The notes beneath the pieces are model-generated. The model was not told the DNA's origin, made no database searches, and worked only from the letters and a program-made list of their open reading frames with translations. A stretch of 33,664 nucleotides of DNA from Bathymodiolus japonicus methanotrophic gill symbiont (GTDB lineage: Bacteria > Pseudomonadota > Gammaproteobacteria > Methylococcales > Methylomonadaceae): NCBI RefSeq assembly GCF_019721995.1, contig NZ_BLYC01000034.1, positions 1-33,664 of the forward strand. Reading direction: 5' to 3'. Position 1 is the stretch's first letter. Every line of letters begins with the position of its first letter. The translations under genes were made by a program, and so were the position numbers. Of the stretch, positions 4,685 through 31,128 are shown piece after piece.

Positions 4685-5609
4685 GAATTAAACCAAAAAG
4701 GCGGGGTGGGAAAATCAAGCCTTGCTCGTGCGTTGGCGGTTGAGTTTGCGCGTAATAAATGGGCGGTACATGTCGCAGACCTTGACGGAAAACAACAAAC
4801 ATCTTTCTTGTGGGGGGAGCGGCGCAAAGAGAGCCAGGCGCGCCATGCTACCTCACGAAATTCCGTGACTCCTGTCGCCATAATTCGTTCACCTACGCAG
4901 CGGATGGGAGATGCCCTGAACGCCCTGCGTCCGCAACGACTACGCACAAAAGCCGCTTCGTCATTACTACCTCACTGGCTGGACGGCTATTCGGAATGCA
5001 ATTCTTGCTCCTCTCGCGTGCTGCTAGCACACGTCGAATCAGCAAATTGCCCTGTCGCCTATCAGGGACTAAAAATCACCACTTCGCTAAGCTACGTTTC
5101 CATGATTTTCAGCGGGGGTAGATCCTTCTATTGATGTTTCTTTGTATTCAGAGCCTAAAACCGCACTAAAAGCCGCGAATAATGCGGATATTCTTATAGT
5201 GGACGGCAAAGCCTTTGCTGATACTCACGCCTTGCCGATAGCCCAAAAAAGTGACCTGATTATAATACCCGTGGGAATTTCAGTGGATGATTTAGAGCCG
5301 TCTTTAAAACTGGCCGTTGAATTTGTTAATAAGGGTATAGATAGAGCCTCTATTGTGTTTGTCGTGTGTAGAGTTCCTGACAAGGGCGATAAAGAGGCCA
5401 TGAATACCCGCGCCAGTATCGAGGCTTGGAATTTTTCCGTGGTGCGTGGCTGGATTCCCATGAAATCGGCATATTCTCAAGCTATGGATAAGGGCTTATC
5501 CTTTACGGAAACGCCTTTTAAGAGCTTGAGCGACAAAACAAATAAAATCATAGAACAATTATTTAACAAAGCAATAGAGCAACAAACAGCGAAGCAGGGG
5601 AGCGCATAA
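4685..5609 (+). pseudogene. parA: parA partition ATPase, split by an R1-R3 cassette
   Basis: The N-terminal part (4685-4834) has the deviant Walker A motif LNQKGGVGKSSLARALA and continues to VADLD and FLWGERRKES. The C-terminal part (5118-5609) begins VDPSIDVSLYSEP and contains ADILIVDGKAF and later ParA-type segments (SDLIIIPVGIS, AYSQAMDKG), ending in an acidic/glutamine tail. Between them lies a 283-bp GC-rich insert (4835-5117). Taking the insert out joins codon AGC to codon GTA in frame, so the disruption is a clean insertion; with it in place the frame shifts. The 5' end is also missing, replaced by R2, with an in-frame TAG at 4673-4675. A TTG at 5142 could start a 155-residue C-terminal piece, but this lacks the nucleotide-binding loop. 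As it stands the gene cannot make a normal ParA. Confidence 0.85.
4835..5117 (+). repeat. R1 cassette, divergent copy, with R3, inside parA
   Basis: It begins CAGGCGCGCC like all R1 copies and stays clearly alignable to them to about 5060, but with many substitutions. Its last part is an R3 module (5067-5115) instead of the usual R1 end. It shifts the parA frame and adds about 100 unrelated codons to the N-terminal fragment before a stop at 5134. One predicted stem carries a compensatory change against the other copies (see findings). Confidence 0.8.
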
Positions 5610-5610
5610 C

Positions 5611-5892
5611 ATGGCAAATCTAAAACCACCAGTAAGCAAAAAAACAGACACAAAAGGCAAAACATGGCTTGACCCTTACACGATTGAGTTAGAGGAGACC
5701 CTACTAGCAAAAGCCAAGCCAGCAGCAGCGACAGAACAAACGCCGCCTAGCTCGCTTGTTCTCATGCAAATAAGAGTACCAGAGAGCGCAAGAAATGAGT
5801 TTAAGGCGTATGCCTCAATGCGTAGCAAGTCAATGAATGTCTTGTTTTTGGAGATGTTCGAGGAATTTAAAACCCGAAATAGTGGCGCATGA
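5611..5892 (+). CDS. Small ribbon-helix-helix partition partner (ParB/ParG-like)
   Basis: A 93-residue basic protein starting 1 bp after the parA stop, as expected for a par operon. The N-terminal 50 residues are charged and probably disordered; the C-terminal segment LMQIRVPESARNEFKAYA (about 52-69), followed by a helix ending LEMFEEFK, has the strand-helix-helix pattern of ribbon-helix-helix DNA-binding proteins. Such small proteins act as centromere-binding partners or repressors of ParA ATPases. The ORF is intact, although its parA is broken and the shared promoter is lost, so expression now would need a new promoter. A short GGTTC/GAACC inverted repeat lies just downstream (about 5908-5934). 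It could also be an antitoxin-like repressor, but no toxin is adjacent. Confidence 0.65.
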   Translation: MANLKPPVSKKTDTKGKTWLDPYTIELEETLLAKAKPAAATEQTPPSSLVLMQIRVPESARNEFKAYASMRSKSMNVLFLEMFEEFKTRNSGA

Positions 5893-5958
5893 CCCGAAGT
5901 CATAAAGGTTCAAATTAATAGAAAATAAGAACCAACCAAAACGCATAATACATTTCTC

Positions 5959-6219
5959 CAGGCGCGCCATGCTACCTCACGAAATTCCGGGACTCCTGTC
6001 GCCGTAATTCGTTCACCTACGCAGCGAATAGGAGATGCTCCAGCCGCCCTGCGTCCGCCACAGACTGAGCACAAAGCAGCTCAGTCATGGCTACCACAAA
6101 TGGCTCTACGGCTATTCGGGATAAAATTTTAGCCTCCCTCGCGCGCTATCGCGCACTTCGGATTGGCAAATTTCCCTGCGCCTTCTGGAGACTATCAGCC
6201 CGTCCGGGGCTGACAGCGG
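5959..6219 (+). repeat. R1 cassette (261 bp), contiguous with R2-R3
   Basis: Full-length R1 from CAGGCGCGCC to GACAGCGG. It is followed after one base by the R2 core and R3, giving the longest composite R1-R2-R3 in the window. It lies about 65 bp downstream of the par partner gene. Confidence 0.88.
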
Positions 6220-6220
6220 A

Positions 6221-6513
6221 GGGGAGTCGCTATTTTTGCGAAAGCTTGTTTTGGGCATCCCAGCCCAAGCAAGCAGCAAAAACTTAACGCGACCACTTAT
6301 GCCTCCGGCGGCCCCGATTCGTCCTCGTCACCTCGTCCCGACCCAACAAGGGGTCGGAACATAGGCTCCAAATGACTTGACGCCGTGTCGGATGGCCTTT
6401 TATTTTGTCTCCACCTTCGCTAACGCTCAGACTCCGACAAAACAACGGCCCTACGGCTATCGCGGACTAAAAATCATCACTTCGCTTAGGCTACGTTTCC
6501 CTGATTTTCAGCG
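6221..6513 (+). repeat. R2-R3 composite repeat, right copy
   Basis: 293 bp, reverse complement of 4392-4684. R2 core 6221-6464, R3 hairpin module 6465-6513. Together the two copies enclose the whole par locus. Confidence 0.88.
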
Positions 6514-6735
6514 AATGAAATAATCATTTTTATTGCTTCTCCCACATATAATAAAAACATTGAAAATAATATAACCCATACTTAAATAAATTACAATACT
6601 TTTAATAAATACATTAAAAACAATACATTTATTAATACACGCAAAAACACTATAAATATATTTTATATTAAAACAAATACAACCAATACTTATTATACTA
6701 GATAGATGGTTGCTAAGTGGGCGAAAATGTCATTT
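6514..6735. other. Very AT-rich spacer, no gene
   Basis: Roughly 200 bp made almost entirely of A and T with scattered short AT words and no ORF of note. Nothing identifiable; it could be a promoter-rich, curved or origin-like stretch. Confidence 0.4.
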
Positions 6736-6914: not shown

Positions 6915-7118
6915 CTGAAGTTTCCCAATAATTATTTATGGTAAAATTGAAACTATGCTACAACTATATGAAAAAAACAGTCTTTTCATTCGTTTCAAAT
7001 GCTATTGCCTAAGGGAAATTAAGTAGGGGTTTGCTATAAACATGGCAAAACCACCTAAAATAAACCTCGATACACCAGCATTGTGTATTTCAGCTACTCA
7101 ATAATTGGGAAACTTCAG
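6915..7118. mobile_element. R4 MITE (204 bp), copy 1
   Basis: Terminal inverted repeats CTGAAGTTTCCCAATAAT and ATTGGGAAACTTCAG. The interior has two very short start-like reading frames (MLQLYEK..., MAKPPKINL...), which suggests it is an internally deleted insertion sequence. This copy has no matching flanks, unlike the copy at 18355-18558. Confidence 0.8.
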
Positions 7119-7224
7119 TTAAGTTAAGAAGAGAGGGTTTACTGCCTTTGTTATAATTACTTATCCAGAACTCAGGTTACAATAGCGTAAGAAACCATAA
7201 AAGTATTGAGCAGGCACTATAAAA

Positions 7225-8073
7225 ATGATAAAGAAAAATGAACGGACAATATTGTTTCTCGACTTGCATATTGATCTCAAAACGGCTTCACATAAAATTA
7301 AAGGGTTGCGTAATAATTTTACCCTAACTGAATTATTTAAAAAAATTGAAGCTATCCGAGAAGCAAATAACGTCAATATGATTAGTCGTTCAGAAGATAA
7401 CAAAAAAGAAGTTTATTTGGCGGATATTAAATATGATTCTGAAAATTGTTGTTGGAAATTACTGGTCAATATTACTGATACGACATTAGCCGATGAAGTT
7501 CACAGGGAGCTTGGTAGTAATGACGATACTCGAAAAGTTAATGCTAAAAAGAATGGTGTAGGTACTGATTTTTCATCACACATAATCATAAAACCTGATC
7601 CCGAAGCAAATGGAAGTTGGCTCGCATTATATGAACAGTCGCTTGCTTTACCAGTAAGACTAGTTTCCAGTTATCTAAATGAGTTATTAAAAATAATAGC
7701 AAGAGAAAATAAAGACGATTTTGAGACTGACCACCCTAAAAATACTGTAGATACAAAAGGGGGAGTAAAAAAAATTAATACCTACTGTCATTGTCATTTT
7801 AACGGCCATATCTCTAAGCAATTTGAAGATGATCTTAATGGTGGCTTTTTGAAGTCACTGACCCTTATTACTGAAAGAATTGAGCAAAAGCACTTGTTGA
7901 CCTTGCAGGAAGGTGTTTCTGAAAATCAGTTCAAGGAAATGATAAATGCAGGAGTCCAGCTTGTCGTTCCTGAGCCTGTAGTATCTGCCTATCCAAAATC
8001 TATCCAGCCACATCTTCAAACCTTGGAAAGCTTTATCGGCGATGTCCGAATTTTGAATATTGGCAGAAGCTAA
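7225..8073 (+). CDS. Chimeric protein: N-terminal part of gene A fused to a restriction-enzyme-like tail
   Basis: A 282-residue ORF made of two parts. Residues 1 to about 213, up to GGFLKSLTLI, match the protein assembled from fragments at 9714-9926, 10103-10143 and 12128-12623 (gene A), so this is the only surviving N-terminus of that protein. From about residue 214 the reading changes to ERIEQKHLLTLQEGVSENQF, a segment ending with AYPKSIQPHLQTLESFIGDV, which resembles the extreme C-terminus of EcoRII-like type II restriction endonucleases. The join falls at a short shared SLTLI stretch, pointing to illegitimate recombination. Gene A itself is of unknown function: a soluble protein with a cysteine/histidine-containing YCHCHFNGHIS strand. 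The start ATG follows a weak ribosome-binding site. The chimera is open and could be translated, but is probably inert. Confidence 0.6.
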   Translation: MIKKNERTILFLDLHIDLKTASHKIKGLRNNFTLTELFKKIEAIREANNVNMISRSEDNKKEVYLADIKYDSENCCWKLLVNITDTTLADEVHRELGSNDDTRKVNAKKNGVGTDFSSHIIIKPDPEANGSWLALYEQSLALPVRLVSSYLNELLKIIARENKDDFETDHPKNTVDTKGGVKKINTYCHCHFNGHISKQFEDDLNGGFLKSLTLITERIEQKHLLTLQEGVSENQFKEMINAGVQLVVPEPVVSAYPKSIQPHLQTLESFIGDVRILNIGRS

Positions 8074-8101
8074 AAAGGCGGCTGAGTAGGGCAGGGCAGA
8101 A

Positions 8102-8365
8102 TTACCACGGATTATCCCAGCCTAAAACACGCCCATCCTCTAAATCCCCTTGATGCCTCTCTAATGTTTCTTGCACGTTGGGCTGTATGCGGTGAACAAG
8201 ATCACTTAATCGGGCTTTGTCTTCCTCTGTCTCCGCACCTTTAAGGCTATTGATTTCTTTTTGAACCCTTGCCCCTGCTTGAAAAATTTCTGTGATTGCA
8301 TCATCGCTAACGCTGTCAGCCCCGACGGGCTGATAGTCTCCAGAAGGCGCAGGGAAATTTGCCAA
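8102..8365 (-). CDS. Small acidic hypothetical protein whose start lies in an R1 cassette
   Basis: An 87-residue frame. The first 18 or so residues (from a TTG at 8363-8365, reading ANFPAPSGDYQPV) are encoded by the end of the R1 cassette at 8311-8569; the remainder (DDAITEIFQAGARVQKEINS onward, ending GWDNPW) is independent sequence that looks like a helical, acidic protein C-terminus. This R1 copy is one base shorter in its terminal hairpin than its sisters, which is what puts the two parts in one frame. It is best read as a gene whose N-terminus was replaced by R1. Family unknown. Confidence 0.45.
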   Translation of the reverse strand: MANFPAPSGDYQPVGADSVSDDAITEIFQAGARVQKEINSLKGAETEEDKARLSDLVHRIQPNVQETLERHQGDLEDGRVLGWDNPW

Positions 8366-8569
8366 TCCGAAGTGCGCGATAGCGCGCGAGGGAGGCTAAA
8401 ATTTTATCCCGAATAGCCGTAGAGCCATTTGTGGTAGCCATGACTGAGCTGCTTTGTGCTCAGTCTGTGGCGGACGCAGGGCGGCTGGAGCATCTCCTAT
8501 TCGCTGCGTAGGTGAACGAATTACGGCGACAGGAGTCCCGGAATTTCGTGAGGTAGCATGGCGCGCCTG
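8311..8569 (-). repeat. R1 cassette (259 bp), minus orientation
   Basis: Runs from CGCTGTC at 8311 to GGCGCGCCTG at 8569, nearly identical to the other standard copies apart from one missing base in the terminal hairpin (about 8319-8325). Confidence 0.87.
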
Positions 8570-9712: not shown

Positions 9713-9713
9713 T

Positions 9714-10143: not shown

Positions 10144-11421
10144 CACCTCCTTACACACAAGTCCTAAAATACGCCTTTTAGCTTTCTGGCCATTTGAATA
10201 CCATATACGCAGTCCTGAATCCTCTGAAAACCGATCCAAATACTTTTCGCACCAGGGTCACCATCTGATTTACGCCCTAAAAAACCACCCAATGTCGCTA
10301 AATTTCTTAACACGGCATTCAGTGTAGGCACTTTTTTGGGTATCTTTTTGTCCAATAAACCATAAGATGATTTCCATTCTAAAGGATCAAAGATTAATTC
10401 AGCAGGCAAGTCAGGACAGATGCGACCTAAGCGCATAAGATACATCACCCGCCAAGCAATAACCATGGCCATGACTAAGGCTTTTTCAATGCGCTCTTTA
10501 CTGGATAATTGAAGCTTTTCAACCTTGCAGCCCACTTTCAAAATATCAAAAAACATTTCTATTTCCCAGCGACAGCGATACCAGTCAATCAACTCACAGG
10601 CTTGATCTTCACTTTCTACCCTTCGATTGCTTAATAAGCGCCATATGAGCGGTGACTTCCCTTTAGGCGGGTTGATTTCTTTTGCCTGAACCAAAGTTAC
10701 TTCAATACCTTCTTTCCCTTTTACGGGGAAAGTGCAGCGTAACACTTTAATTTCTTGCTGAACTTGTCGCGATTTTTCGCCTTTTTTTCGTGGCTTAATA
10801 AAACTAACGCGACTCATAACCTCTTGCTTATCGACGCTATCCCACAGTGTTTCATCCGCTGATAATTTACGGTTATGCCTGGCTCTTACTAGCCAGTCAG
10901 CAGGCGTATTTAACGCCTTACTTCTCTGCATAGCTTTTTCCTCTTGTCCACATCCACGCATCACTAACCCCTAAAGGGAGCCGGTCTGGTGTAATGCAGA
11001 GTGTCGGATGCAAGTACATGCCTCTTTGGGCATCGTAAGATAAGCGACCTAAATCCTCAGTTTCTTGTCCATTAAAATCTAATTCTGTCGTATCTTGTAA
11101 GCATAAAATAACGGGCTCTTCACTGACTATAATGCGCTGTTCAACTTGATCTGTATGGGCGACTAACAACTTTTCCCATGTCACATTCTCATTTGCATAA
11201 AATCGATAAGTCGCTTGTGTTTCAGTCCAGCCTTGGCAAGCCTGAGGAATGCTTAGTTTAGGCGCTTTTACAAAAGTTTCTATCAATTTAACTGCTTTTT
11301 TATTAAGCCGTGAATCACCTAAATCTAAATTACAAAATTCCATTTCTGCCCAAGTCTCAGTCATCGTTACTAAAATAATGAGATTTTACACTCTTATATC
11401 AGACTTGTGTGTAAGGAGATG
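10144..11421 (-). mobile_element. Tn5-like IS4 element, copy 2, deletion derivative (1278 bp)
   Basis: Both ends are present (CACCTCCTTACACACAAGTC and GACTTGTGTGTAAGGAGATG). It is exactly 143 bp shorter than the full element at 12624-14044 because of the same internal deletion as copy 1, which splits the transposase into two frames (10918-11364 and 10164-10964). Left flank ccctagaaat belongs to gene A; right flank gcctaaggg belongs to an R4 MITE, so the two flanks come from different insertion events. Confidence 0.9.
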
Positions 11422-11533
11422 GCCTAAGGGGAATTAAGTAGGGGTTTGCTATAAACATGGCAAAACCACCTAAAATAAACCTCGATACACCAGCATTGTG
11501 TATTTCAGCTACTCAATAATTGGGAAACTTCAG
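11422..11533. mobile_element. R4 MITE, right half of a split copy
   Basis: Matches the right half of the R4 MITE from GCCTAAGGG to CTTCAG. Its left half is at 14045-14147 beyond IS copy 3, in the opposite orientation. Both halves carry the 9-bp GCCTAAGGG at the IS boundary. Confidence 0.85.
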
Positions 11534-11552
11534 TTGTGTTTTATAACCGATT

Positions 11553-12125: not shown

Positions 12126-12127
12126 AT

Positions 12128-16205: not shown

Positions 16206-16256
16206 CCGCTGAAAATCAGGGAAACGGAGCCTAAGCGAAGTGATGATTTTCAGCGG
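16206..16256. repeat. R3 hairpin element, solitary complete copy (51 bp)
   Basis: CCGCTGAAAATCA and TGATTTTCAGCGG are 13-bp perfect arms around GGGAAACGGAGCCTAAGCGAAGTGA. This is the cleanest R3 and shows that R3 exists apart from R1 and R2. Confidence 0.85.
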
Positions 16257-16506: not shown

Positions 16507-18315
16507 ATGAAAAAAAAACTTTCTAAATCGAATTTTACTGCTTGTGAATGGCACTTCGACAAAGAAACTGAAAATCATGATGGCTATGAGGGTGTCATGA
16601 ATAGCCTCTTGGTAGCGGCTATAGAAAAAGAAAAACAGGGGGAATATGAACAATCCGAAATTTTAAACTTGCTGTCCAATGCGACCTCCATGTATCTTTC
16701 AGCAAAAGATATTAATCAGCCATTTAAAGCATTGTGTAGAATAAGTAATCGCCCCTATCTTACTCCTGATTCATTTACCCAGGACGCGTTAGTATTTTTT
16801 GAAGAAATTTTGCCTGTAGTAGATAGCATGTGGCTTAAGGCTCGATTAGCTGATCTATTGTGGTTGTGCAAAAAGAAGAAAAATGTAGATCATGCAAAAA
16901 TTGCAGTAAATGCTTATATATCACACTCCATCGACTCAGGTAACTTTCACAAAGACGTAAACGACTGTTTTTATAGGGCTATTGTCTTATGTAAGGGGGT
17001 AAAATACAAGGACGGATCAAAAGAAATTAAAAATAAACTTTATACCTCCTTTCAGAAAGATTATCCAGATTGCCCTTTTATGTGCGGATCATTGGCTCAG
17101 CTATTACTTCTAAATGAATTAGATATTAAGAGTAATTGTAGGGTAAATATAGTCAACCGGCTTATTACTCTAGGCCAAAAATTATCCGAATCTGGAGACT
17201 ACCTGGGATCGATAGATTATTTTGATCTGGCTGAAAAAGAACAGAAAAATGAAGATGAATCAGAATGGTTAAATTGTTTATTGTTTATTGCTGATAGCAA
17301 TAAACATCAGGGGGATCTAAGGTCATCTGATAGTCAAAGTGTTGCCAAGTACTTTTATGAAGAAACCCTTAAATACTATCTAAAGATACCGAACAAATAT
17401 CGAGAAGAATTAGGGGTACAAAAAAAAATTATCACCATTCGCGACAAAATTGAAATATCTGGAAAAAATGCTCTAGCTCAAATGGTGGAGCTAGAATTAC
17501 CACCGGTTGATATTTCGGATAGTGTAAAAAAATCCAGAGAGCACGTATCCGGGAAAGAGTCATTAAGAATAGCTCTCTTTTATTTTTCTACTGTATGTAT
17601 CCTCCCTAGTTTGAAAGATGTTAAAGAAGTTGAGCAAAAGTCAATAGAAAATCCATCTATTATCGATGATATACACTCGATAATAATAGCTCAAGATGGT
17701 CGTTGTGTTGCAAGTGTACCGGGTATTAATTTTGATGGAGTGGATGCTGTTCTCAATCATCGAATTCAAAAAAACTTTCAGATAAATATATGTTTTGCTG
17801 TTAAAGGAGATATTTTACCCGCTTTATCTAAGCTTCGGGATGAGTATTCAGTTACGCTGCCTGTTTTAAAATCTCTATGTGAGTGCTCGGTATTAGTTCC
17901 TAAAGGCAGAGAAAATTTAACCGCTTACGCTTTGTGGTTGGGTTTTGGTGGTGATTTTGGTAATGCTATTCATTTACTTTGCCCCCAATTTGAAAACATG
18001 ATTCGTGTTGAATTAAAACGAGTTGGAGCTCAAACACGTCCTATAACTAACAACCACATTGAGCATGAAATATGTCTAAGTAGTTTGATGGACTTACCTG
18101 AGTGTAAAGAAGTGTTTGGTGAAGATTTGGTATTTGAAATAAAATCGATTTTTACCGACCCTTTGGGGAGTAATTTACGCAATGATGTAGCTCATGGTTT
18201 ACTAGATGATAGCAGTTCCTCAAGCATCCAAAGTGTTTATGCCTGGTGGATGATCTTGAAAATGATAATCCACCATCGCCCGAAAAATTCTGAAAACGGA
18301 GCTTTAGCGAAGTGA
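16507..18315 (+). CDS. 602-residue helical protein with HEPN-like RNDVAH motif (DUF4209-like)
   Basis: Large, mostly helical cytosolic protein; an AGAGGAGC ribosome-binding site lies 8 nt before the ATG. Residues 30-300 look like TPR-type helical repeats (SGDYLGSIDYFDLAEKE and similar). The C-terminal part has DPLGSNLRNDVAHGLL with R558-N-D-V-A-H563, the Rx4H signature of HEPN-type ribonucleases and related domains, in a context like DUF4209 proteins. HEPN proteins of this size are common in abortive-infection and toxin systems. The last residues (NSENGALAK) are encoded by an R3 fragment, so the natural C-terminus, probably only a few residues, has been replaced. The fragment at 16336-16494 may be a broken partner. 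The family assignment is moderate; the defence role is inference. Confidence 0.6.
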   Translation: MKKKLSKSNFTACEWHFDKETENHDGYEGVMNSLLVAAIEKEKQGEYEQSEILNLLSNATSMYLSAKDINQPFKALCRISNRPYLTPDSFTQDALVFFEEILPVVDSMWLKARLADLLWLCKKKKNVDHAKIAVNAYISHSIDSGNFHKDVNDCFYRAIVLCKGVKYKDGSKEIKNKLYTSFQKDYPDCPFMCGSLAQLLLLNELDIKSNCRVNIVNRLITLGQKLSESGDYLGSIDYFDLAEKEQKNEDESEWLNCLLFIADSNKHQGDLRSSDSQSVAKYFYEETLKYYLKIPNKYREELGVQKKIITIRDKIEISGKNALAQMVELELPPVDISDSVKKSREHVSGKESLRIALFYFSTVCILPSLKDVKEVEQKSIENPSIIDDIHSIIIAQDGRCVASVPGINFDGVDAVLNHRIQKNFQINICFAVKGDILPALSKLRDEYSVTLPVLKSLCECSVLVPKGRENLTAYALWLGFGGDFGNAIHLLCPQFENMIRVELKRVGAQTRPITNNHIEHEICLSSLMDLPECKEVFGEDLVFEIKSIFTDPLGSNLRNDVAHGLLDDSSSSSIQSVYAWWMILKMIIHHRPKNSENGALAK

Positions 18316-18326
18316 AGATTTTTAGT
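18281..18326. repeat. R3 element, degenerate copy at the gene end
   Basis: TGAAAACGGAGCTTTAGCGAAGTGAAGATTTTTAG is a degraded R3 with recognisable AACGGAGC and GCGAAGTGA core. It supplies the last residues and stop of the upstream 602-residue gene. Confidence 0.6.
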
Positions 18327-18354
18327 TTGATTTTTTAACATGGGTTTTATTAAC

Positions 18355-18558
18355 CTGAAGTTTCCCAATAATTATTTATGGTAAAATTGAAACTATGCTA
18401 CAACTATATGAAAAAAATAGTCTTTTCATTCGTTTCAAATGCTATTGCCTAAGGGGAATTAAGTAGGGGTTTGCTATAAACATGGCAAAACCACCTAAAA
18501 TAAACCTCGATACACCAGCATTGTGTATTTCAGCTACTCAATAATTGGGAAACTTCAG
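18355..18558. mobile_element. R4 MITE (204 bp), copy with 8-bp target duplication
   Basis: Full-length R4; flanks TTATTAAC at 18347-18354 and 18559-18566 are an exact 8-bp direct repeat, defining the ends (CTGAAG...CTTCAG) and duplication length for the family. Confidence 0.88.
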
Positions 18559-18566
18559 TTATTAAC

Positions 18567-19072: not shown

Positions 19073-19500
19073 AATGATAAGTAATTTATATTCATTGATT
19101 TATTAAGAAAAAAAACCAAAAAAAATCAAAACCCAAAACCTCTAAAACTTTATTAAAAACAATATCTTAAGTGGAATATTCTCAACTATAAATGCATTAT
19201 ATATAAATATAAAAAAAACAAAAATCAAAACAACGTAAATGATAATTGGTTTATATCTAATATATATATATCTATTGATTTCTTAAGAAAAAAACAAAAA
19301 AAATCAAAATCCTAAACCCTTAAAACCTTATTGAAAACAATATCTTAAGTGGAATATTCTCAACTATAAATGCATTATATATAAACATAAAAACAAAAAA
19401 CCAAGAAAAAGCAAAACAACCTAAGTGACAATTGGTTTATATCTCATTGTATATATATTTATTGATTTCTTAAAAGAAAAAACCAAGAAAAAGCAAAACA
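19068..19500. repeat. AT-rich tandem repeat, period about 180 bp, about 2.4 units
   Basis: A long AT-rich unit repeats: the landmark ATTGATTT occurs at 19094, 19274 and 19461 (periods 180 and 187), and the inner block TTAAGTGGAATATTCTCAAC with ATAAATGCATTATATATAAA occurs in both full units. Each unit holds many A-tracts followed by TTATATAT runs. No ORF. It lies between IS66 and R1 remnants. It may be curved DNA, part of an origin or centromere-like site, or a decayed satellite. Confidence 0.75.
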
Positions 19501-19509: not shown

Positions 19510-19770
19510 CAGGCGCGCCATGCTACCTCACGAAATTCCGGGACTCCTGTCGCCGTAATTCGTTCACCTACGCAGCGAATAGGAGATGCTCCAGCCGCCC
19601 TGCGTCCGCCACAGACTGAGCACAAAGCAGCTCAGTCATGGCTACCACAAATGGCTCTACGGCTATTCGGGATAAAATTTTAGCCTCCCTCGCGCGCTAT
19701 CGCGCACTTCGGATTGGCAAATTTCCCTGCGCCTTCTGGAGACTATCAGCCCGTCCGGGGCTGACAGCGG
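19510..19770 (+). repeat. R1 cassette (261 bp), against the hsdM start
   Basis: Standard full-length R1 with no R2 after it. Its GACAGCGG end cuts a minus-strand gene start after 12 codons (19771-19805). Confidence 0.88.
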
Positions 19771-19824: not shown

Positions 19825-19909
19825 TCGCTGAAAATCCTGGAAACGGAGCTTTACGGGGAGTCGCTATTTGCTTAGGGAATAGTTCAGGATTAAACCTGTA
19901 ATTAGTCAT
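19825..19909 (-). pseudogene. R3/R2 debris and an unidentified 14-codon gene start
   Basis: A partial R3 (19825-19854) joins a scrap of R2 (GGGGAGTCGCTATTT, 19855-19869). On the minus strand an ATG at 19909 with AGGGGA before it starts MTNYRFNPELFPKQ and runs into this R2 scrap. It is the beginning of a gene, family unknown, downstream of hsdS. Confidence 0.4.
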
Positions 19910-21202: not shown

Positions 21203-22889
21203 ACGCCGATAACCCCGAGATTTCACGTCCTTGCGCCAGTTTATGTAAATGTGGGGCTAAGTCTTTCATTAACGCCAATTCTTTTTTTACACGGTCTTTC
21301 CAGCCAAGTTCTAGCGGTGACAATAAATCACTTAAATTCTCACCATCAAAAATCATGCGGTTAATAATCGTACCGACAAAATCTTGTAAGGTTTGTGGTT
21401 GTAGCCCATGTTTTGTAGCTAACGTGTTTAGTTCATTGGTCGTTTTATCTGCCTTAAAGGCTTGGTAGTCCTTGCGGATTTGATTTTCATCTAGTTTTTC
21501 GCCAACCTTGAGGCTGTTGATATAATCAATAATATCTTCACTTTCTTCCATTAGGTTTGCATGGCTACTAATCATGTTGATTAGTTCTTTGCGGGTCATT
21601 TTTTCTTTGTTGCTGTCTTGGGTGGATTTGGCGATTAATCCCATAATGAAATCGTAATCGATCACAGCAGAAGCAAAGATCACCAATTCAAAATCTAATT
21701 GTTGCACTTCGATCTCAATACCTTCACCGTCTTTATCTTGCTTGCGCTTGAAGTCTTTTGCTATTTCTAAGTAAGCACTTTTGAAGCCACGCAAGTCTTC
21801 GATAGATAAAGCAGTCTCTATGTGTTGCTGTTCCTCATCACTAAGCTCAGTGTATTGCTCAATTTGGGTATTGAGCTTTTGCACGGTTTTAAAGTGGTTA
21901 ATAAACTCAGCTCTGGCAATATCACCTTTTAGATTAGCCACTTCTGACGGGCTACAATCCAGCCCTTTTTCTTGCATAAAAGTATCTAGTGTTTCGATGG
22001 ATTTTTGGTAATTTTTAACTGCTACAGGGGAAGAATCTACTAACCAGATTTCTTTAGCACGGTTTTTAGCCGCCCCTGAGAAAAGCTCGATAGCGGCGTT
22101 AACTCCAGTTTCTTGCCCACGAAAATCGAGAATATTACCACAAGGCTTACTGTCATTAAGGACGCGATTTGTCCGCGAGAAGGCTTGAATTAAGCCGTGG
22201 TATTTTAAGTTTTTATCCACGTAAAGTGTATTAAGGAATTTAGAGTCAAACCCTGTCAGTAACATATCCACCACAATGACAATATCAATTTTATTTTTGT
22301 GGGGGAAACCGGCATTGCTGTATTTTTGGTCTTTAATGCGTTGCTGTACATCTTGGTAGTAAAGATCAAATTCGTTAATTCTATGGTTAGTGCCATATTG
22401 CTGATTATAGTTGGCAATAATTTCTTTAAGAGCTTCTTTTTTCTTTTCTGGCTCTACTTGGTTGTCCGCTTTTTCTTGCGGCAAGTCTTCTTGTAGTTGT
22501 TTAATATCTTTGCTGTTTTTATCTACATTGCTATTATCTGAGTTGGTTTTATCTTTCGCTCCCCTTTGAGCAGGCGGTGAGAATACACAGACAATATTCA
22601 GAGGCGTAAGGTTCTGATATTCGACTTGCTGCTGTTCTTGTTGAATTTTGAATTCTTCAACATAGTCTATCGCATGGTTAATAGAGGCGGTTGCCAGTAC
22701 TGCATTAAAGCGGCGGTGATTGGTTACTGCGTCGTGCTTTGCCAATATCTCTTTTACCACGGCATCAGTCGGTAGGCTCTCACTTTTTTGTTTTTTACTA
22801 TTATGTCCTTCGCCAAAATAATCAATATGAAAGCTGAGTACATTTCTATCGTCAATGGCATTGGTAATGGTGTAGGCGTGCAACTCTTT
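21195..22889 (-). pseudogene. hsdR: HsdR type I restriction subunit, C-terminal half
   Basis: About 565 residues of an HsdR, which is normally about 1000. It keeps SF2 helicase motifs of the second RecA domain (VVDMLLTGFDSKFLNTLYVD, then LIQAFSRTNRVLN) and the helical C-terminal region that contacts the methyltransferase (HANLMEES...FVGTIINRMIFDG). The nuclease domain and Walker A region are missing: the frame starts in an IS6 fragment (22889-22936). Without those parts it cannot cut or translocate DNA. The stop overlaps hsdS. Confidence 0.9.
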
Positions 22890-22936
22890 CGCAATAATTA
22901 TCAAAAGCACAGACCTCCTGGTCTTCAGGCATAACT
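22889..22936. mobile_element. IS6 end fragment fused to hsdR
   Basis: CGCAATAATTATCAAAAGCA and on to CTGGTCTTCAGGCATAACT match the left-end region of IS6 (578-625). The outermost GGTTCTGT has been replaced by hsdR sequence. Confidence 0.8.
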
Positions 22937-22952
22937 CCCCAAACTTCTTATA

Positions 22953-23104
22953 CTCGATGTTCAAGTTTTCAGCTATAACTGGGCTAAGAAAAGTAAATTT
23001 TTCCGGCTTTGTTTTATAAGTGATTAATTTACAATGATGTTGATGCTTTCTTTGTCAGTAAAATTATCAATAAAATCAATCAGTTAAAAAACTTGAACAT
23101 CGAG
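22953..23104. mobile_element. 152-bp MITE, copy 2, with TTATA target duplication
   Basis: Same length and nearly identical to 1887-2038, flanked by TTATA at 22948-22952 and 23105-23109. It lies 15 bp past the stop of repA. Confidence 0.88.
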
Positions 23105-23119: not shown

Positions 23120-24055
23120 TCACTTTTTCAACGCATCCCTCAACCGCTTAATCCTATTCTCCGCTTGGTCATAACTTTCTCCAGGTTTAGCCAGCTTCTC
23201 AATCTCTTTTTTACTAACATGCTTAGGTAGTTGTTGAGATGCTTTGCTTTCTTTAGGTGGTTCTTTTCGTGTAAACATCACAACATCATTTTCCATTGAT
23301 ATGTTGTATTCAGGAAGGTGATTAGTTTCGATGATTTTTTTGATATTAAATCGAAGGGCCTTTATCTGTGAAGTAATACCAATTTTTGTTTTAAGATTTT
23401 CTAGCTTAATTTTCCAAGCTACTTGATTACCACAGTGCTTTCTAGCTAACTCATACAGTCGCCTTTCAGTTGGTTTCCTTAGCGTGAAATAGTCTTTATC
23501 AATACTTAATACTGCATTACCCAACACTGAATTATAAAACCAATCAGATAACCTTACTTCAATAGATGAAGCTCGACCTTGTTCGTTTTCTTTAACAATC
23601 TTCCAAGCATCAATCAATCCGAACTCTTCTGTAGTCTCAACTTTATTTGTCTTGATGTTTGTCTGAATAACAGTACCTTTTAAACGCTCAAGTCCTTCTT
23701 GAAGTTGATTGTACTGAAAACCACCGGTACCTTTACTTGTTGCAATTAAATAATCATATGAAGTAAATCGAACTGTTTTAGAAATCTTCTCTCCAGAATT
23801 TTTCGCATTCATCAATGAACTTGAAAGATATAGTAAAATATCTTTATCCAAAATAGTTGCTAACCCAGTATAACTAGGCTTAATAGTTATTTTTATTCCA
23901 TTATGTTCATATTTTAAAACCCTATGATCAGGTTTTTTTGAAAGGCTAAAAACAGGATGCTCCATCGATGCAATATCATCTTTAAAAGAATCAAAAACAT
24001 CACATATAAAAAAATCCTTATTTTCATTCTTACTAGAAAGTGATGGCAGGCTCAT
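23120..24055 (-). CDS. repA: Plasmid replication initiator protein A (RPA family)
   Basis: 311 residues. The N-terminal part (EHPVFSLSKKPDHRVLKYEH, then KPSYTGLATILDKDILLYL) and the central SIDKDYFTLRKPTERRLYELARKHCG segment are typical of the replication initiator A family (PF10134), which binds a plasmid origin through winged-helix domains. The C-terminal 50 residues are basic with a predicted helix. The gene looks complete. Its upstream region ends 40 bp before the ATG at an IS4-type element (24096), so the native promoter and any iterons upstream have been displaced; no strong ribosome-binding site is visible. Replication now may depend on this protein expressed from an IS promoter, or the replicon may be dead. 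Confidence 0.82.
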   Translation of the reverse strand: MSLPSLSSKNENKDFFICDVFDSFKDDIASMEHPVFSLSKKPDHRVLKYEHNGIKITIKPSYTGLATILDKDILLYLSSSLMNAKNSGEKISKTVRFTSYDYLIATSKGTGGFQYNQLQEGLERLKGTVIQTNIKTNKVETTEEFGLIDAWKIVKENEQGRASSIEVRLSDWFYNSVLGNAVLSIDKDYFTLRKPTERRLYELARKHCGNQVAWKIKLENLKTKIGITSQIKALRFNIKKIIETNHLPEYNISMENDVVMFTRKEPPKESKASQQLPKHVSKKEIEKLAKPGESYDQAENRIKRLRDALKK

Positions 24056-24095: not shown

Positions 24096-25619
24096 CATCA
24101 GTGTTCCCCTATCAATTGAGGCCGTGAAACTAACCTCGCCACAAGAGAGCTCATAAAGCACTGTAAAGACATTCCTGTTATTATTGCGTTTTGAACTGCC
24201 CGAATGGTATACGAGCTGATACGAGATATTCTTGCCTGGAAAAATAATGGATTCACAAAACGATCTCGTTTTTGAGCCTGTTGCTGCCTTATCTCCAGAG
24301 CCTCGCTATATTTTTTATCCGATGGATGAATCAATTCTGGCTGTTGTGTTTTTGAAATCTCTTCAAATACGCGCATTAAATTATAGCTCATTGCAGTCAG
24401 GCGCATTTGATTTTCAAGTGAGCGGGTATTGGAAGACCAAGCTTTAGTTTCCTTGAAATTACTTTTAGTGTTATTGAATGTCTTTTCAATCGTCCATCGC
24501 TTGAAATACAGCATGGCAATGGTTCCAGGGTTAATAGTCATTGGCAAGGTTGTCACAAACCGGTGAAGTTTTCCGGTTTCTGGATCACGGTAATCCACCA
24601 CGTTAAATTTGATGCCCTTGTTTTCGTACACACTGTATGCTTCAACCCCTGTATTGATCTCATGGCGGGAGTCAAAAGGGATAGACTCAACCAGAGTCGC
24701 AATTGAATTTTCTTTTAGCATTGAAATCATGTAATTAGCATGTCGTTTCTGCCGATCCCACCAGACAAAGTCGGTGACGGCTTTATCGTAGACATAGAGA
24801 TGTTTCTGAGAGCTGTTATTTCCCTTGTTTTGCTTTTCAATATGATCTCGTAACACAGGTATTTCTTGATGCCTCTGAGTTCCGTTTGTCACCAGACAAA
24901 GAAATCTGAGCAACCCACTTCTGAGATTCAACGCGTAAATCCCCCCGGCCGCATAAACTTTCCCCTTGCTGTTTTTTTCAGTATGGCAGGCATGATCAAT
25001 AAAATGTCCATCCGCTGCTTCTATGGTGTATTCGTCAAGTTCTGGGAATGCTTTAAGATAATCAATGCCTTGCGATAGCAGTGTTTCAGAGTGAAGATGG
25101 TAGCTCTGCTGTTCAAATGCCTCAAGCATACTTGTTCGTCTATGCGACTTCAGTGATTTAAAATACGTTGAGTGGGGAAGCAGCTGGCCATAAATCTGTT
25201 CATTGGTTTGGAGGAAATGGCGACCACTATCGACTACACTGATACAGCGTAATAACCCAAGGCGAATAAAGTCGATATCCTTCAACTCTGGGCATGAACG
25301 AGCCCACAAAGGATGACGCTCTGCTAACAGGGCACGTTCCATACTTTCATTGCAGTGTTGGTGAATATGTTCAGAGAGTGGTAGGTCTTTAAGCATGGGT
25401 GATATCCGTTTATGAGGTGATTAAAACGGAAATTTTTAGAAAAATTTTTTCGGCAATTGCAAGCTTTATTTGAAATTATTTGTTGTTTTTTTACGGTGCC
25501 TACAGAGTGTCTATTTGCTGTTATAAGTGATTAAAATCAAAAAGATGGAAATATTCGAGTGGTGCTACCTTCAGGTAGGTTATAGGCTGCTTTGTTTAGG
25601 TACTTCTTCTTTCAATGGC
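24096..25619 (-). mobile_element. IS4-family element A, copy 1 (outer end damaged)
   Basis: The 3' end CATCAGTGTTCCC is at 24096; the 5' end is altered after TTCAATGG at about 25619, where element B begins. Sequence 25397-25619 is the non-coding leader of the IS and holds no other gene. Confidence 0.88.
24098..25396 (-). CDS. IS4-family transposase (element A, copy 1)
   Basis: 432 residues, with D129 (EAADGHFIDH), D204 (VYDKAVTD) and the YREK signature at Y297, R300, E304 and K311. Its stop codon lies in the terminal repeat. It differs from copies 2 and 3 at residue 103 (S instead of A). Confidence 0.94.
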   Translation of the reverse strand: MLKDLPLSEHIHQHCNESMERALLAERHPLWARSCPELKDIDFIRLGLLRCISVVDSGRHFLQTNEQIYGQLLPHSTYFKSLKSHRRTSMLEAFEQQSYHLHSETLLSQGIDYLKAFPELDEYTIEAADGHFIDHACHTEKNSKGKVYAAGGIYALNLRSGLLRFLCLVTNGTQRHQEIPVLRDHIEKQNKGNNSSQKHLYVYDKAVTDFVWWDRQKRHANYMISMLKENSIATLVESIPFDSRHEINTGVEAYSVYENKGIKFNVVDYRDPETGKLHRFVTTLPMTINPGTIAMLYFKRWTIEKTFNNTKSNFKETKAWSSNTRSLENQMRLTAMSYNLMRVFEEISKTQQPELIHPSDKKYSEALEIRQQQAQKRDRFVNPLFFQARISRISSYTIRAVQNAIITGMSLQCFMSSLVARLVSRPQLIGEH

Positions 25620-27136: not shown

Positions 27137-28670
27137 CATCAGTGTTCCCATTGAAAGAAGAAGTACCTAAACAAAGCAGCCTATAACCTACCTGAAGGTA
27201 GCACCACTCGAATATTTCCATCTTTTTGATTTTAATCACTTATAACAGCAAATAGACACTCTGTAGGCACCGTAAAAAAACAACAAATAATTTCAAATAA
27301 AGCTTGCAATTGCCGAAAAAATTTTTCTAAAAATTTCCGTTTTAATCACCTCATAAACGGATATCACCCATGCTTAAAGACCTACCACTCTCTGAACATA
27401 TTCACCAACACTGCAATGAAAGTATGGAACGTGCCCTGTTAGCAGAGCGTCATCCTTTGTGGGCTCGTTCATGCCCAGAGTTGAAGGATATCGACTTTAT
27501 TCGCCTTGGGTTATTACGCTGTATCAGTGTAGTCGATAGTGGTCGCCATTTCCTCCAAACCAATGAACAGATTTATGGCCAGCTGCTTCCCCACTCAACG
27601 TATTTTAAATCACTGAAGTCGCATAGACGAACAAGTATGCTTGAGGCATTTGAACAGCAGAGCTATCATCTTCACGCTGAAACACTGCTATCGCAAGGCA
27701 TTGATTATCTTAAAGCATTCCCGGAACTTGACGAATACACCATAGAAGCAGCGGATGGACATTTTATTGATCATGCCTGCCATACTGAAAAAAACAGCAA
27801 GGGGAAAGTTTATGCGGCCGGGGGGATTTACGCGTTGAATCTCAGAAGTGGGTTGCTCAGATTTCTTTGTCTGGTGACAAACGGAACTCAGAGGCATCAA
27901 GAAATACCTGTGTTACGAGATCATATTGAAAAGCAAAACAAGGGAAATAACAGCTCTCAGAAACATCTCTATGTCTACGATAAAGCCGTCACCGACTTTG
28001 TCTGGTGGGATCGGCAGAAACGACATGCTAATTACATGATTTCAATGCTAAAAGAAAATTCAATTGCGACTCTGGTTGAGTCTATCCCTTTTGACTCCCG
28101 CCATGAGATCAATACAGGGGTTGAAGCATACAGTGTGTACGAAAACAAGGGCATCAAATTTAACGTGGTGGATTACCGTGATCCAGAAACCGGAAAACTT
28201 CACCGGTTTGTGACAACCTTGCCAATGACTATTAACCCTGGAACCATTGCCATGCTGTATTTCAAGCGATGGACGATTGAAAAGACATTCAATAACACTA
28301 AAAGTAATTTCAAGGAAACTAAAGCTTGGTCTTCCAATACCCGCTCACTTGAAAATCAAATGCGCCTGACTGCAATGAGCTATAATTTAATGCGCGTGTT
28401 TGAAGAGATTTCAAAAACACAACAGCCAGAATTGATTCATCCATCGGATAAAAAATATAGCGAGGCTCTGGAGATAAGGCAGCAACAGGCTCAAAAACGA
28501 GATCGTTTTGTGAATCCATTATTTTTCCAGGCAAGAATATCTCGTATCAGCTCGTATACCATTCGGGCAGTTCAAAACGCAATAATAACAGGAATGTCTT
28601 TACAGTGCTTTATGAGCTCTCTTGTGGCGAGGTTAGTCTCACGGCCTCAATTGATAGGGGAACACTGATG
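27137..28670 (+). mobile_element. IS4-family element A, copy 2 (1534 bp)
   Basis: Complete, ends CATCAGTGTTCCC and GGGAACACTGATG. Its right flank GCTTATAA is the reverse of the duplication seen at copy 3, but its left flank belongs to element B, so one side has been rearranged. It forms the outer part of the left palindrome arm. Confidence 0.9.
27370..28668 (+). CDS. IS4-family transposase (element A, copy 2)
   Basis: 432 residues, all catalytic residues present (as in copy 1: D129, D204, E304 with YREK). Confidence 0.94.
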   Translation: MLKDLPLSEHIHQHCNESMERALLAERHPLWARSCPELKDIDFIRLGLLRCISVVDSGRHFLQTNEQIYGQLLPHSTYFKSLKSHRRTSMLEAFEQQSYHLHAETLLSQGIDYLKAFPELDEYTIEAADGHFIDHACHTEKNSKGKVYAAGGIYALNLRSGLLRFLCLVTNGTQRHQEIPVLRDHIEKQNKGNNSSQKHLYVYDKAVTDFVWWDRQKRHANYMISMLKENSIATLVESIPFDSRHEINTGVEAYSVYENKGIKFNVVDYRDPETGKLHRFVTTLPMTINPGTIAMLYFKRWTIEKTFNNTKSNFKETKAWSSNTRSLENQMRLTAMSYNLMRVFEEISKTQQPELIHPSDKKYSEALEIRQQQAQKRDRFVNPLFFQARISRISSYTIRAVQNAIITGMSLQCFMSSLVARLVSRPQLIGEH

Positions 28671-28758: not shown

Positions 28759-28904
28759 CAGATATTGATATCTTTGTGGCTAAAATTGAGGGGGATAAAA
28801 CTTCTTAAGTGTTGTATCGTGAGCGTAAGTTACGCTAAACTAAGTAATCTTTCTGAGAAACTTAGGCTCTACGGTGTTATTTTTTATATAAATTGAGGTG
28901 TAAA

Positions 28905-29624
28905 ATGAAGAGATATAATTTTTTAGTGTTATTAGTAAGTGTTTTAGTGTTATTCCCTGCGCGAGCAGATGATCTTGAGGTGTTCACCCCGTACGCTCTT
29001 TATGATAATCCTATAGTAGAATTTACTCAGGAACCTGAGTACGATGATTTTTGTACATCATCGTTTGCTCCTTATGGAGCTTTAGAAATGGATGAAGAAG
29101 AAATGTCTCAGTATCTAACATCTTTGCAGGATGGTCCTTGTGCCAGAATTTATGAGGTTGGTGATGAGGGTCCCGCGGGAGGTCGTGTATTTTATATTTC
29201 GGACGATGAAGGAAAACATGGATTAGAAGCTGCTCCCGATGATTTTAGTGGTGTTGAGTGGGGCTGTCATGGAATTAAGGTAGAAGGAACTAATCATACA
29301 GAGATTGGTGGGGGGAAAGATAACTCTGATGCACATGCAGAATTTAACTGTAAAAGTCGCTGGGGCGGAAGAGTTGCTTTCGATGTAGTTAAGGATTATA
29401 AATTACATGGATATCTGGATTGGTACGTGCCCTCTCGTGACGAGTTGCTGACTATGAAGTCTGAGTTGAGTGTTAAGGATCTCGGTAACTTTGCTAAATC
29501 TTGTTATTGGGCTTCTACAGAAGCATGGGGTACATTCAGTTGGATGGTAAATTTTGGTTCCGGCGGGTACGTATATGGCGAGAAAAGCCTGAGAGTCCGC
29601 GTCAAGCCTATTAGGACTTTTTAA
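28905..29624 (+). CDS. Secreted DUF1566/Lcl-type protein, left arm copy
   Basis: 239 residues from ATG 28905, chosen because GAGGTG lies about 5 nt upstream; the TTG at 28893 is part of that site. A Sec signal peptide MKRYNFLVLLVSVLVLFPARA precedes the mature start DDLEVF. After an acidic region (to about 85), the repeat-rich module begins with GDEGPAGGRVFYISDDEGKH and continues through WGCHG, GYLDWYVPSRDELLTMKSEL, SCYWASTEAW and ends VRVKPIRTF. This is the DUF1566 (Lcl C-terminal-like) fold found in cell-surface and secreted bacterial proteins, some of which bind host glycans or collagen-like partners. The mature protein has several cysteines. It is the only clear exported protein in the window. 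Duplicate: 31160-31879. Confidence 0.8.
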   Translation: MKRYNFLVLLVSVLVLFPARADDLEVFTPYALYDNPIVEFTQEPEYDDFCTSSFAPYGALEMDEEEMSQYLTSLQDGPCARIYEVGDEGPAGGRVFYISDDEGKHGLEAAPDDFSGVEWGCHGIKVEGTNHTEIGGGKDNSDAHAEFNCKSRWGGRVAFDVVKDYKLHGYLDWYVPSRDELLTMKSELSVKDLGNFAKSCYWASTEAWGTFSWMVNFGSGGYVYGEKSLRVRVKPIRTF

Positions 29625-29655
29625 TTACAGTCCGCAGTTTAGACTTTAAAAACAT

Positions 29656-29916
29656 CCGCTGTCAGCCCCGGACGGGCTGATAGTCTCCAGAAGGCGCAGG
29701 GAAATTTGCCAATCCGAAGTGCGCGATAGCGCGCGAGGGAGGCTAAAATTTTATCCCGAATAGCCGTAGAGCCATTTGTGGTAGCCATGACTGAGCTGCT
29801 TTGTGCTCAGTCTGTGGCGGACGCAGGGCGGCTGGAGCATCTCCTATTCGCTGCGTAGGTGAACGAATTACGGCGACAGGAGTCCCGGAATTTCGTGAGG
29901 TAGCATGGCGCGCCTG
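29656..29916 (-). repeat. R1 cassette (261 bp), left palindrome arm
   Basis: Standard R1, with GGCGCGCCTG pointing to the central loop. In this orientation its TGAGGTAGCATGG supplies a ribosome-binding site and ATG to the helicase fragment. Confidence 0.88.
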
Positions 29917-31041
29917 ATCCGTTTTATCTGCTGTAAAAAAAACATTCCTGATGTAGAAAATTTTGCAGAAACAGTTAAAAAAGGTATCTTTGAAATAAAA
30001 GGTTTTGAGGATGAAGGCGATGAAGTTCAGTGGATTATTAATAAGATAACATCATTAGTTTCATTAAAGGTACATGGTGATATTGAAGGTGAAATTTCCT
30101 ATGAAAAAATTGCTGTGCTTGCAAGAAACAAATATTTTTTTAATCAATTAGAAGCTCAACTTGTAGAAAGTAACCTTCCTTTCTACTACAAAATGACTCC
30201 AGGAACTATTCGATTTGAGTCTGATTTAATGAAGACATTTGATCTTGGGTTAAGAGTTCGACTGAACCCTCAAGACATCTTACACAAACAGCGATTGTTT
30301 AACAGGTTGAAAATAGAGGGTAACAACAACCCAGATTTAAAAAACATTACATCATTAATATCAGACCAATCTTTAAAAGAGGTTATTATTTTAGTGCTAT
30401 CATTGAATGATGATGGAAGCAACTTAAAAAGGAGTTTTGAAAATTTAAAGGATAATATAAATATTGAGGATGAAAATGAAAAAAGCATGATCATCAATGA
30501 TATTAACGAAATACTGAAACATTGGCATAATTACGCTAGTAAGACTGATAATAAATCTTTACATCAATTTAAAAATGCTATGGCTTTAGGGCAAACTCAT
30601 CCATTGGCACAGCATTCTGGAATCACATTAAGTACAGTTCATACAATGAAAGGTCAAGAGTTTGATATTGTCTTTATTATGGGGATGGATGATGAGACTT
30701 TTCCTGATTATAGAGCAGTACGTAATGGTGGTATTGAGATGACACAGGAAAAAAACAACCTATATGTTGCTTTTACCCGTGCAAAACGATTTTTATATGT
30801 TACTTACCCAAAAAATAAAATGATGCCTTGGGGTGATTATAAAATGCGAAGACTCTCTCGATTCTTACAGGCGCGCCATGCTACCTCCCGAAATTCCGGG
30901 ACTCCTGTCGCCGTAATTCGTTCACCTACGCAGCGAATAGGAGATGCTCCAGCCGCCCTGCGTCCGCCACAGACTGAGCACAAAGCAGCTCAGTCATGGC
31001 TACCACAAATGGCTCTACGGCTATTCGGGATAAAATTTTAG
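29905..31041 (+). pseudogene. UvrD/Rep-like SF1 helicase C-terminal part, capped at both ends by R1
   Basis: The helicase-like part is 29917-30867, about 317 residues. It contains VLARNKYFFNQLEAQLVESN, then TLSTVHTMKGQEFDIVFIMG (motif V) and NNLYVAFTRAKRFLYVTYPK (motif VI), the second RecA domain of UvrD/Rep/PcrA-type helicases. The ATP-binding Walker A half is absent, so it has no helicase activity by itself. The start (MAR) comes from the left R1, and the last 57 or so codons, after LSRFL, come from the right R1, ending at 31041. It forms the loop between palindromic arms. The source gene is not in the window. Confidence 0.8.
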
Positions 31042-31128
31042 CCTCCCTCGCGCGCTATCGCGCACTTCGGATTGGCAAATTTCCCTGCGCCTTCTGGAGA
31101 CTATCAGCCCGTCCGGGGCTGACAGCGG
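30868..31128 (+). repeat. R1 cassette (261 bp), right palindrome arm
   Basis: Mirror of 29656-29916 with at least one substitution (CTACCTCCC against CTACCTCAC). It supplies the tail of the helicase-fragment ORF. Confidence 0.88.

Follow-up and report, generated by a model that had tools for sequence, protein, structure and literature searches.

R1 and its sister element R2 are short dispersed repeats which, in the reading that we favour at slightly better than even confidence, are mobile elements with no recognisable gene, transferred as a single folded strand of DNA by a Y1/HUH-type enzyme supplied in trans. Six copies of R1 lie in the stretch of DNA analysed here, namely 33,664 nucleotides of contig NZ_BLYC01000034.1 of the Bathymodiolus japonicus methanotrophic gill symbiont (hereafter the window). 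The elements insert precisely and without target duplication, a C stands four bases before the cut (position -4), insertion is biased with respect to the replicating strands, and a fold is kept on one strand, the active strand, which is complementary to the strand on which the element is written in this text (the top strand). These parts come directly from the data; the single-strand intermediate, the Y1-type chemistry and the supply in trans we infer. Because the target rule comes down to one base and the ends are exact, candidates for the missing enzyme can be put to a direct test.

R1 was first noticed by inspection of the window. This original prediction described six GC-rich copies of a 261-bp structured cassette without terminal inverted repeats or visible target duplication, belonging to no named family and perhaps moved by an enzyme that it did not name, and it proposed alignment of the flanks with empty sites and covariance modelling as checks. 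All six copies are present at re-mapped limits. The repeated unit itself stands, but its length is 260 rather than 261 bp, and the first copy extends to 5114 as another subtype. The expected GC-richness is found, since the copies have a GC content of 54–59% against 39% for the window.

Scale, Subtypes and Hosts

The symbiont assembly (G000) comprises 4,971,076 bases in 109 contigs and is 98.86% complete, and elements and junctions were collected in a sample of 1.23 Mb of its 4.97 Mb (parts of contigs C1–C5 and the window). Exact matches to the first 14 bases of R1 number 798 in the assembly (359 forward, 439 reverse), while the reversed pattern, used as a control, gave 0, which puts the repeat far above chance expectation; the number of R2 copies, extrapolated from the 1.23-Mb sample, is some 400. 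For one genome with no recognised mover, this is an extreme case of an element in which no gene is recognisable. As judged by their end patterns, 179 complete R1 and 109 complete R2 copies are present in the sample, and R1- or R2-like sequence made up 5.5–9.6% of five contig samples by masking. All six R1 copies of the window start with CAGGCGCGCC and end with CAGCG, and their left and right ends have no inverted-repeat relation to each other. Three forms can be distinguished: R1a of 260 bp, R1b of 280 bp, which has an AT-rich 3' hairpin, and R2 of about 295 bp, whose terminal hairpin is the same as that of R1b and which also ends with CAGCG. The window contains five R1a copies and one R1b copy, and a covariance model made from R1 alone picks up both of its R2 copies. 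Of the 28 R1a copies found within the first 400 kb of C1, 21 are identical, whereas R1b copies of reference length differ from the reference by up to about 2%; R1a therefore seems to have multiplied in a recent burst, and R1b seems to be older. It is unlikely that R1 codes for a protein, judging from the finding of a stop-free end-to-end frame in only 6 of 36 diverse copies, with lengths in all three classes modulo 3, although the R1b copy of the window is crossed by an open frame (4706–5134).

R1 was matched in 16 of 61 genomes, its own genome included. A 22-base query from the shared hairpin end found, among named genomes, mostly Bathymodiolus methanotrophic gill symbionts (at least 53 stretches), and the matches listed also include Methylococcaceae, Methylophaga, Cycloclasticus and thiotroph bins, some of which may be contamination. 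R1 and R2 also show the reshaping of genomes related to mussel symbionts.

Insertion Junctions and Target Rule

The flanks of each element were joined across it and compared with uninterrupted places in the same 1.23-Mb sample. Such a place was available for 84 R1 junctions; 65 of them aligned free of gaps, 62 at an identity of at least 95% (59 distinct). R2 junctions showed one gap in 47 of 65 cases, exactly at the junction in 46, and because the gap sits at this point, the true start of R2 is placed one base earlier, as T[CT]GGGGAGTCGC. Neither duplication nor loss of target bases was found at the compared R1 and R2 junctions that match empty sites.

On the top strand, the fourth base after the hairpin end (+4) is G at 177 of 179 R1 and 106 of 109 R2 junctions (174/176 and 106/109 when each distinct junction is counted once), and the first base (+1) is seldom C (4/179 and 2/109). 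A motif was sought in the non-hairpin flank of R1 at the sample junctions, and none was found. Read on the complementary strand, the rule becomes a cut 3' of CNNN, followed by CG and a 10-bp stem with the foot CTG...TAG, and the far end on this strand also has C at -4, in the form CCT[GA] in R1, CC[GA]A in R2 and CTTG in the relative from genome G027. Hairpin ends in other species have C at -4 in 42 of 43 cases (G027 included, and at least one locus, L043/L221, counted twice), among them 8/8 in G027; on Legionella antarctica plasmids the figure is 2/2. The C at -4 (283 of 288 ends) is the only fixed base of the R1/R2 target tetranucleotide, the other three being variable.

The sample also contains solo palindromes of the end hairpin, three of b type and two of a type, with G at +4 at 10/10 ends. 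Palindromes of exactly this form would result if the DNA between two inverted elements were deleted, and the one in the window (Table 1) is probably the remnant of such a deletion; double-foot repetitive extragenic palindromes (REPs) are given the same origin (PMC6006769). In 4 of 47 listed R2 copies (C1:23374, 24851 and 135463, and window 6221), the end of an R1a copy stands directly before R2. These tandems are either a hotspot or a composite unit, and they can be taken as a hotspot of plain insertions because the GGGG start of R2 fits the rule NNNG.

Strand Bias and Conserved Fold

With repeats masked, the top strand lies on the side of negative local GC skew for 148 of 173 R1 and 68 of 87 R2 copies, and the active strand therefore coincides with the lagging-strand template. 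R1 lies within reading frames in 61 of 171 cases, compared with 252 of 400 random sites, which makes insertions rarer in frames. An intron-like orientation with respect to genes was considered for R1 and set aside, as the 61 spanning frames run in the same direction in 37 cases and in the opposite direction in 24, with no clear rule.

The fold was studied on an alignment of 36 R1 copies, less than 97% alike and taken from at least 10 genomes, for which RNAalifold gave -101 kcal/mol on the active strand and -70 kcal/mol on the opposite strand. The active-strand fold has 66 pairs, with 93.4% of cells paired. When columns were slid by 1–3, 26–48% of cells remained paired; when the 3' letters were shuffled among sequences, 85.4% did so (standard deviation 0.4), a value that stays high because the alignment columns are conserved. 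Pairs altered on both sides number 29, against a shuffle mean of 21.4, and in an alignment of the left half, made separately from the same copies, both sides are changed in 9 of 15 pairs. Covariance modelling, the other check proposed, thus yields compensatory changes across the diverged copies. G.T cells outnumber A.C cells by 328 to 36 on the active strand, the fold itself having been chosen on that strand; with a wobble-free, strand-neutral fold the ratio is 92 to 31, and with a fold chosen on the opposite strand it is still 90 to 58, in both cases in favour of the active strand. Selection therefore acts on the active strand, either as RNA or as single-stranded DNA. Two U.G pairs are nearly invariant (35/36 and 34/34 sequences with letters), and 33 of 36 copies have a G.T wobble at the third position of the end stem. 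Y1 enzymes contact irregularities of the stem (PMC8266576).

Relatives in Other Families

A covariance model of the left half was run against 370 genomes of the class under strict filters, by which weak matches may be lost, and it matched in six of them (G000, G027, G039, G243, G277 and G295); the match in G039 is partial, and the left end in G243 looks broken. The relatives in G277 (L265), G295 (L264) and a contig from a viral collection (L280) have a common plan of CNNN, a CGCTG stem TAGTCC and a CATTTG segment. They also carry a CGCAGGGCG stretch, which is less marked in L265, and at the right end a hairpin built around GGGACT...GTCCC; their end stems differ in sequence while keeping the CTG/TAG foot. 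At about 300–420 of L280, the R1 relative adjoins what we take to be an integron attC-type site. A BLAST search with L265 led to plasmids of Legionella antarctica that carry two copies with the same 261 bases, one of them beside an IS91 transposase coding sequence and the other between coding sequences for a Tn3-family transposase and a DUF4158 protein. The IS91 gene was considered as a partner of the Legionella copy and dismissed because the second identical copy has no such neighbour, and both loci are accordingly taken as insertion sites. The R1 model scores 29.4 bits for L280 and 19.8 bits (E 0.005) for the Legionella copy. Partial R2-like matches occur on four methanotroph plasmids, and phage records gave no match. 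A weak match to the left end of the R1 type on the Caedibacter taeniospiralis plasmid pKAP298 (L284 1501–1549; BLAST E 0.02) was rejected, as it gains no support from the R1 model. Judging by these sequences, R1 has relatives in other families of its class, with a conserved folded plan. A fold kept between distant families means that the body does something, which is unusual for a non-autonomous element and might point the way to an unfamiliar insertion system guided by RNA or DNA structure.

As a separate observation, an R2-like right half at about 3169515–3169648 of G027:C1 lies beside an apparent group II intron reverse transcriptase and a domain V-like end, with an N stretch between them; it was not retained as a candidate element, since no left end is within reach.

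Search for the Moving Enzyme

Profile searches were made with six protein families. Y1_Tnp (PF01797) gave 25 matches in G000, which by match range and frame are partial or broken save one; several of these matches hold R1 or R2 sequence inside or beside them, and the gene at C2:313065 has an in-frame TAG. The sole intact-looking Y1 gene is a RAYT-like frame of 225 amino acids on C5. The TnpB domain (PF07282) was found 0 times in G000 and in 6 of 14 control genomes, the IscB domain (PF14239) 0 times with silent controls, and Y2_Tnp (PF04986) 0 times with 0/14 controls matched. There are 15 matches to tyrosine integrases and five to RVT_1; by our reading, one of the five RVT_1 proteins seems to be a broken group II type and the others seem to belong to defence systems or retrons. 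No larger element with R1/R2 ends, and so none with a Y1 gene between them, was seen in the 1.23 of 4.97 Mb of G000 that were sampled, in 0.8 Mb of G027 or in the fetched loci; in one of these scans 47 of 346 ends remained unclassified. Longer elements split by genes amounted to three chains at two places, in which the frames in the gaps read as known transposases, and an inverted end pair of 820 bp on C2 seems to be the decayed remains of a copy next to a gene of the host; neither was kept. The gene of the mover may lie elsewhere, go unrecognised, or be missing from the assembly.

Rfam searches of the window and of its part 4380–6530 gave nothing above a family threshold, and only chance-like matches at permissive thresholds. 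Among the titles and starts of abstracts listed by searches of an open-access collection, none describes the R1 repeat. The remaining claims of the original prediction fared well: the ends are not inverted repeats and the compared junctions are without duplication, no Rfam family reached its threshold in the window, mobility is shown by the empty sites and the burst of identical copies, and structure by the compensatory changes, while the search with six families did not name the mover. Beyond the reach of that prediction were the copy number, the sister R2, the NNNG rule, the strand bias and the relatives in other families.

Proposed Mode of Movement and Alternative Explanations

In the reading that we favour, the active strand would consist, from 5' to 3', of a target CNNN, the cut, CG and a 10-bp hairpin, the folded body, a GC-rich right end, a second CNNN and the second cut, the foot of the hairpin being CTG...TAG with a G.T pair. 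A HUH/Y1-type transposase supplied in trans would cut 3' of CNNN at both ends, and the excised strand would be rejoined 3' of another CNNN on the lagging-strand template. This would account for the precise junctions, the rule on one flank, the bias with respect to replication and the presence of C at position -4 of each cut. Elements of the IS200/IS605 group and PATEs resemble R1 in the absence of duplication, insertion 3' of a left-flank tetranucleotide, structured ends and use of the lagging-strand template; unlike them, R1 has neither tnpA nor tnpB in the copies seen, and has a one-base rule, a left hairpin 2 nt from the cut and a conserved fold of the entire body. REP/REPIN sequences, which are moved by RAYTs, share with R1 a very high copy number, a hairpin whose stem contains an irregular pair, a mobilisation that is presumed to occur in trans and double-ended solo hairpins, but R1 has 260–300 nt compared with 20–40 for REPs, and its foot has no GTAG, GTGG or CGTC tag. 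The collected hairpin types have the foot CG/TC rather than the GT[AG]G (or CGTC) foot tag by which REPs are defined (PMC6006769, PMC3733652). By the tests made, R1 lies outside REP and all Rfam families and lacks an IS200/IS605 transposase, though it works like both.

Several points weigh against this reading. No mobilising enzyme came out of the profile searches: TnpA of the IS200 type was rejected as the mover, its matches being partial or broken by range or frame except for the RAYT-like gene, and that gene is itself bounded by terminal repeats of its own, of the type AAAGGGGACG...CCCTTT. This boundary is kept in the orthologues of G049 and G017, where, as in G000, repeats of the AAAGGGGACGCTACCCTTT type form a TIRYT-like arrangement (PMC3733652). 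Since its repeats are unrelated to R1, the RAYT-like gene is probably not the mover, and RAYT was dismissed in this role. The flank tetranucleotide of IS200/IS605 elements is fully specified, as in TTAC of IS608 (PMC5934647), unlike that of R1 and R2, which is specified at one base. The Y1 model has no need of a fold conserved over the whole body, which is most simply explained if a functional RNA is, or in the past was, made from the element as well. There are gaps in 19 of 84 R1 empty-site comparisons, and the hosts of the empty sites are mostly repeated sequences. A direct host duplication of 21 bp flanks one R1a copy (L022 1480–1785), perhaps through local rearrangement, and the right end on the Legionella plasmids may be four bases longer (ATCG), without C at -4. 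The strand rule in G027 fits 5 of 7 elements, too few for a test.

A wider reading, which we hold tentatively, makes R1 the best-populated member seen of an ancient group of mobile RNAs, folded, about 260–310 nt long and conserved in shape in several families of the class, in which the unit that transposes is the RNA gene itself. Fold and cut sites would then act jointly, and the mover would be a single-strand transposase or an RNA-guided or reverse-transcribing enzyme. If true, a mobile folded RNA with one fixed target base would be a bacterial counterpart of the short interspersed nuclear elements (SINEs).

A more specific and rather doubtful alternative is a mobile structured RNA, in which the folded strand is transcribed and a reverse transcriptase acting in trans inserts the resulting RNA, somewhat as for a group II intron lacking an open reading frame. 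Such introns, which show replication-strand bias, share with R1 the folded body, the precise insertion without duplication and the strand bias; the fold and covariation of the entire body on one strand, the near-invariant U.G pairs and the presence of the five RVT_1 matches also fit. Yet the target is one base and not a block like an intron-binding site, R1 has no clear gene orientation and no group I or II match in Rfam (4380–6530, E up to 10), and it is only inserted near the reverse transcriptase loci, of the defence/retron and broken group II appearance described above, rather than forming part of them. It is unlikely that R1 is an omega-RNA-like guide scaffold, the remnant of an IS605/TnpB-type element that lost its nuclease and was moved by a Y1 transposase. 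Like R1, HEARO and omega-RNA elements are mobile units that have an RNA-like folded body and a motif in one flank only, and in the TnpB-type order the motif lies in the 5' flank, the folded strand is the active strand and the RNA ends at the right boundary; the folded strand and motif side of R1 fit this order and not that of IscB. Against it stand the lack of any Rfam or HEARO match above chance, the lack of a TnpB match in G000 where 6/14 control genomes were positive (the zero for IscB has silent controls), and the fact that R1 and R2 have the left half in common in the part modelled, whereas this reading would call for the right end.

A rolling-circle element of the IS91/Helitron kind, with the hairpin as terminator and the R1–R2 tandems as read-through, would explain the lack of duplication, the asymmetric ends, the hairpin near one end and the one-sided target base as well as the position of the R1a end before some R2 copies, but we regard it as quite improbable: Y2_Tnp gave no match in G000, with silent controls, the C at -4 of both cuts suits a two-cut mechanism better, and the GGGG start of R2 is itself an NNNG target, so that the tandems can be plain insertions. 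The high copy number and small size would suit an ordinary DDE-type miniature inverted-repeat transposable element (MITE), or an assembly artefact, only at the very lowest probability, given ends that are not inverted repeats, junctions free of duplication, compensatory changes that maintain the fold throughout the body, the relatives known from other families and the pair of identical copies in finished plasmid records. The bcr1, BOX and ERIC repeats, which are likewise dispersed and have conserved secondary structure, are set apart from R1 by their description, since their size, ends and sequence are other. The crossover point of an integron attC site constrains both flanks, whereas in R1 only one flank is constrained.

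Elements and Other Features of the Window

The copies and fragments found in the window are listed in Table 1. The R1 copies at 29657 and 30868 most likely represent one insertion event, because they lie in an inverted host duplication and have a common flank.

Table 1. R1 and R2 copies and related fragments in the window (bits and E values refer to the R1 covariance model).
Feature	Position	Strand	Remarks
R1b copy, 280 bp	4835..5114	+	144 bits; 3' flank GGGG
R1a copy, 260 bp	5959..6218	+	R2 copy directly 3'; 3' flank GAGG
R1a copy, 259 bp	8311..8569	-	End hairpin short by one base; 3' flank TTAG
R1a copy, 260 bp	19510..19769	+	3' flank GGTT, the sole exception to +4 G among the six window copies
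R1a copy, 260 bp	29657..29916	-	Within inverted host duplication; 3' flank GATG
R1a copy, 260 bp	30868..31127	+	Inverted duplicate of 29657-29916; 3' flank GATG
R2 sister element	6221..6513	+	75.5 bits, E 1.1e-15; first two bases uncertain; 3' flank AATG
R2 copy, 295 bp, TCGGGGAGTCGC...CAGCG	4392..4686	-	74.1 bits; 3' flank GAGG
Solo hairpin, 49-bp palindrome of the R1b/R2 end	16207..16255	.	45.2 bits; +4 G on either side
Probable decayed relic of hairpin end	18279..18380	-	33 bits, E 3.3e-6
R2-like hairpin end, fragment	19826..19887	-	21.2 bits, E 0.0014

The R1b copy (4835–5114) appears to split a ParA-like gene (window 4706–5609); the ParA-like reading of 5142–5609 comes from its translation, with no Pfam match. 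An RPA-type replication initiator (PF10134) lies at 23120–24055, and because of these two genes the contig may be a plasmid. AT-rich, iteron-like repeated units of about 180 bp occupy 19083–19490, just ahead of the R1a copy that starts at 19510.

Two further repeats occur on the 33.7-kb contig. A DDE-type insertion sequence is present in three near-identical copies (24096–25618, 27148–28670 and 32112–33655). In addition, a MITE-like repeat of 207 nt, unrelated to R1 and having inverted ends TTTCCCAATAATTATT.../...AATAATTGGGAAACTT, is found at 6915–7121, 18355–18561 and, at 70%, 11330–11536. Among the other genes of the window are one for a protein with an EcoRII-C domain (7225–8073) and those for the specificity and R subunits of a type I restriction system (20003–22964).

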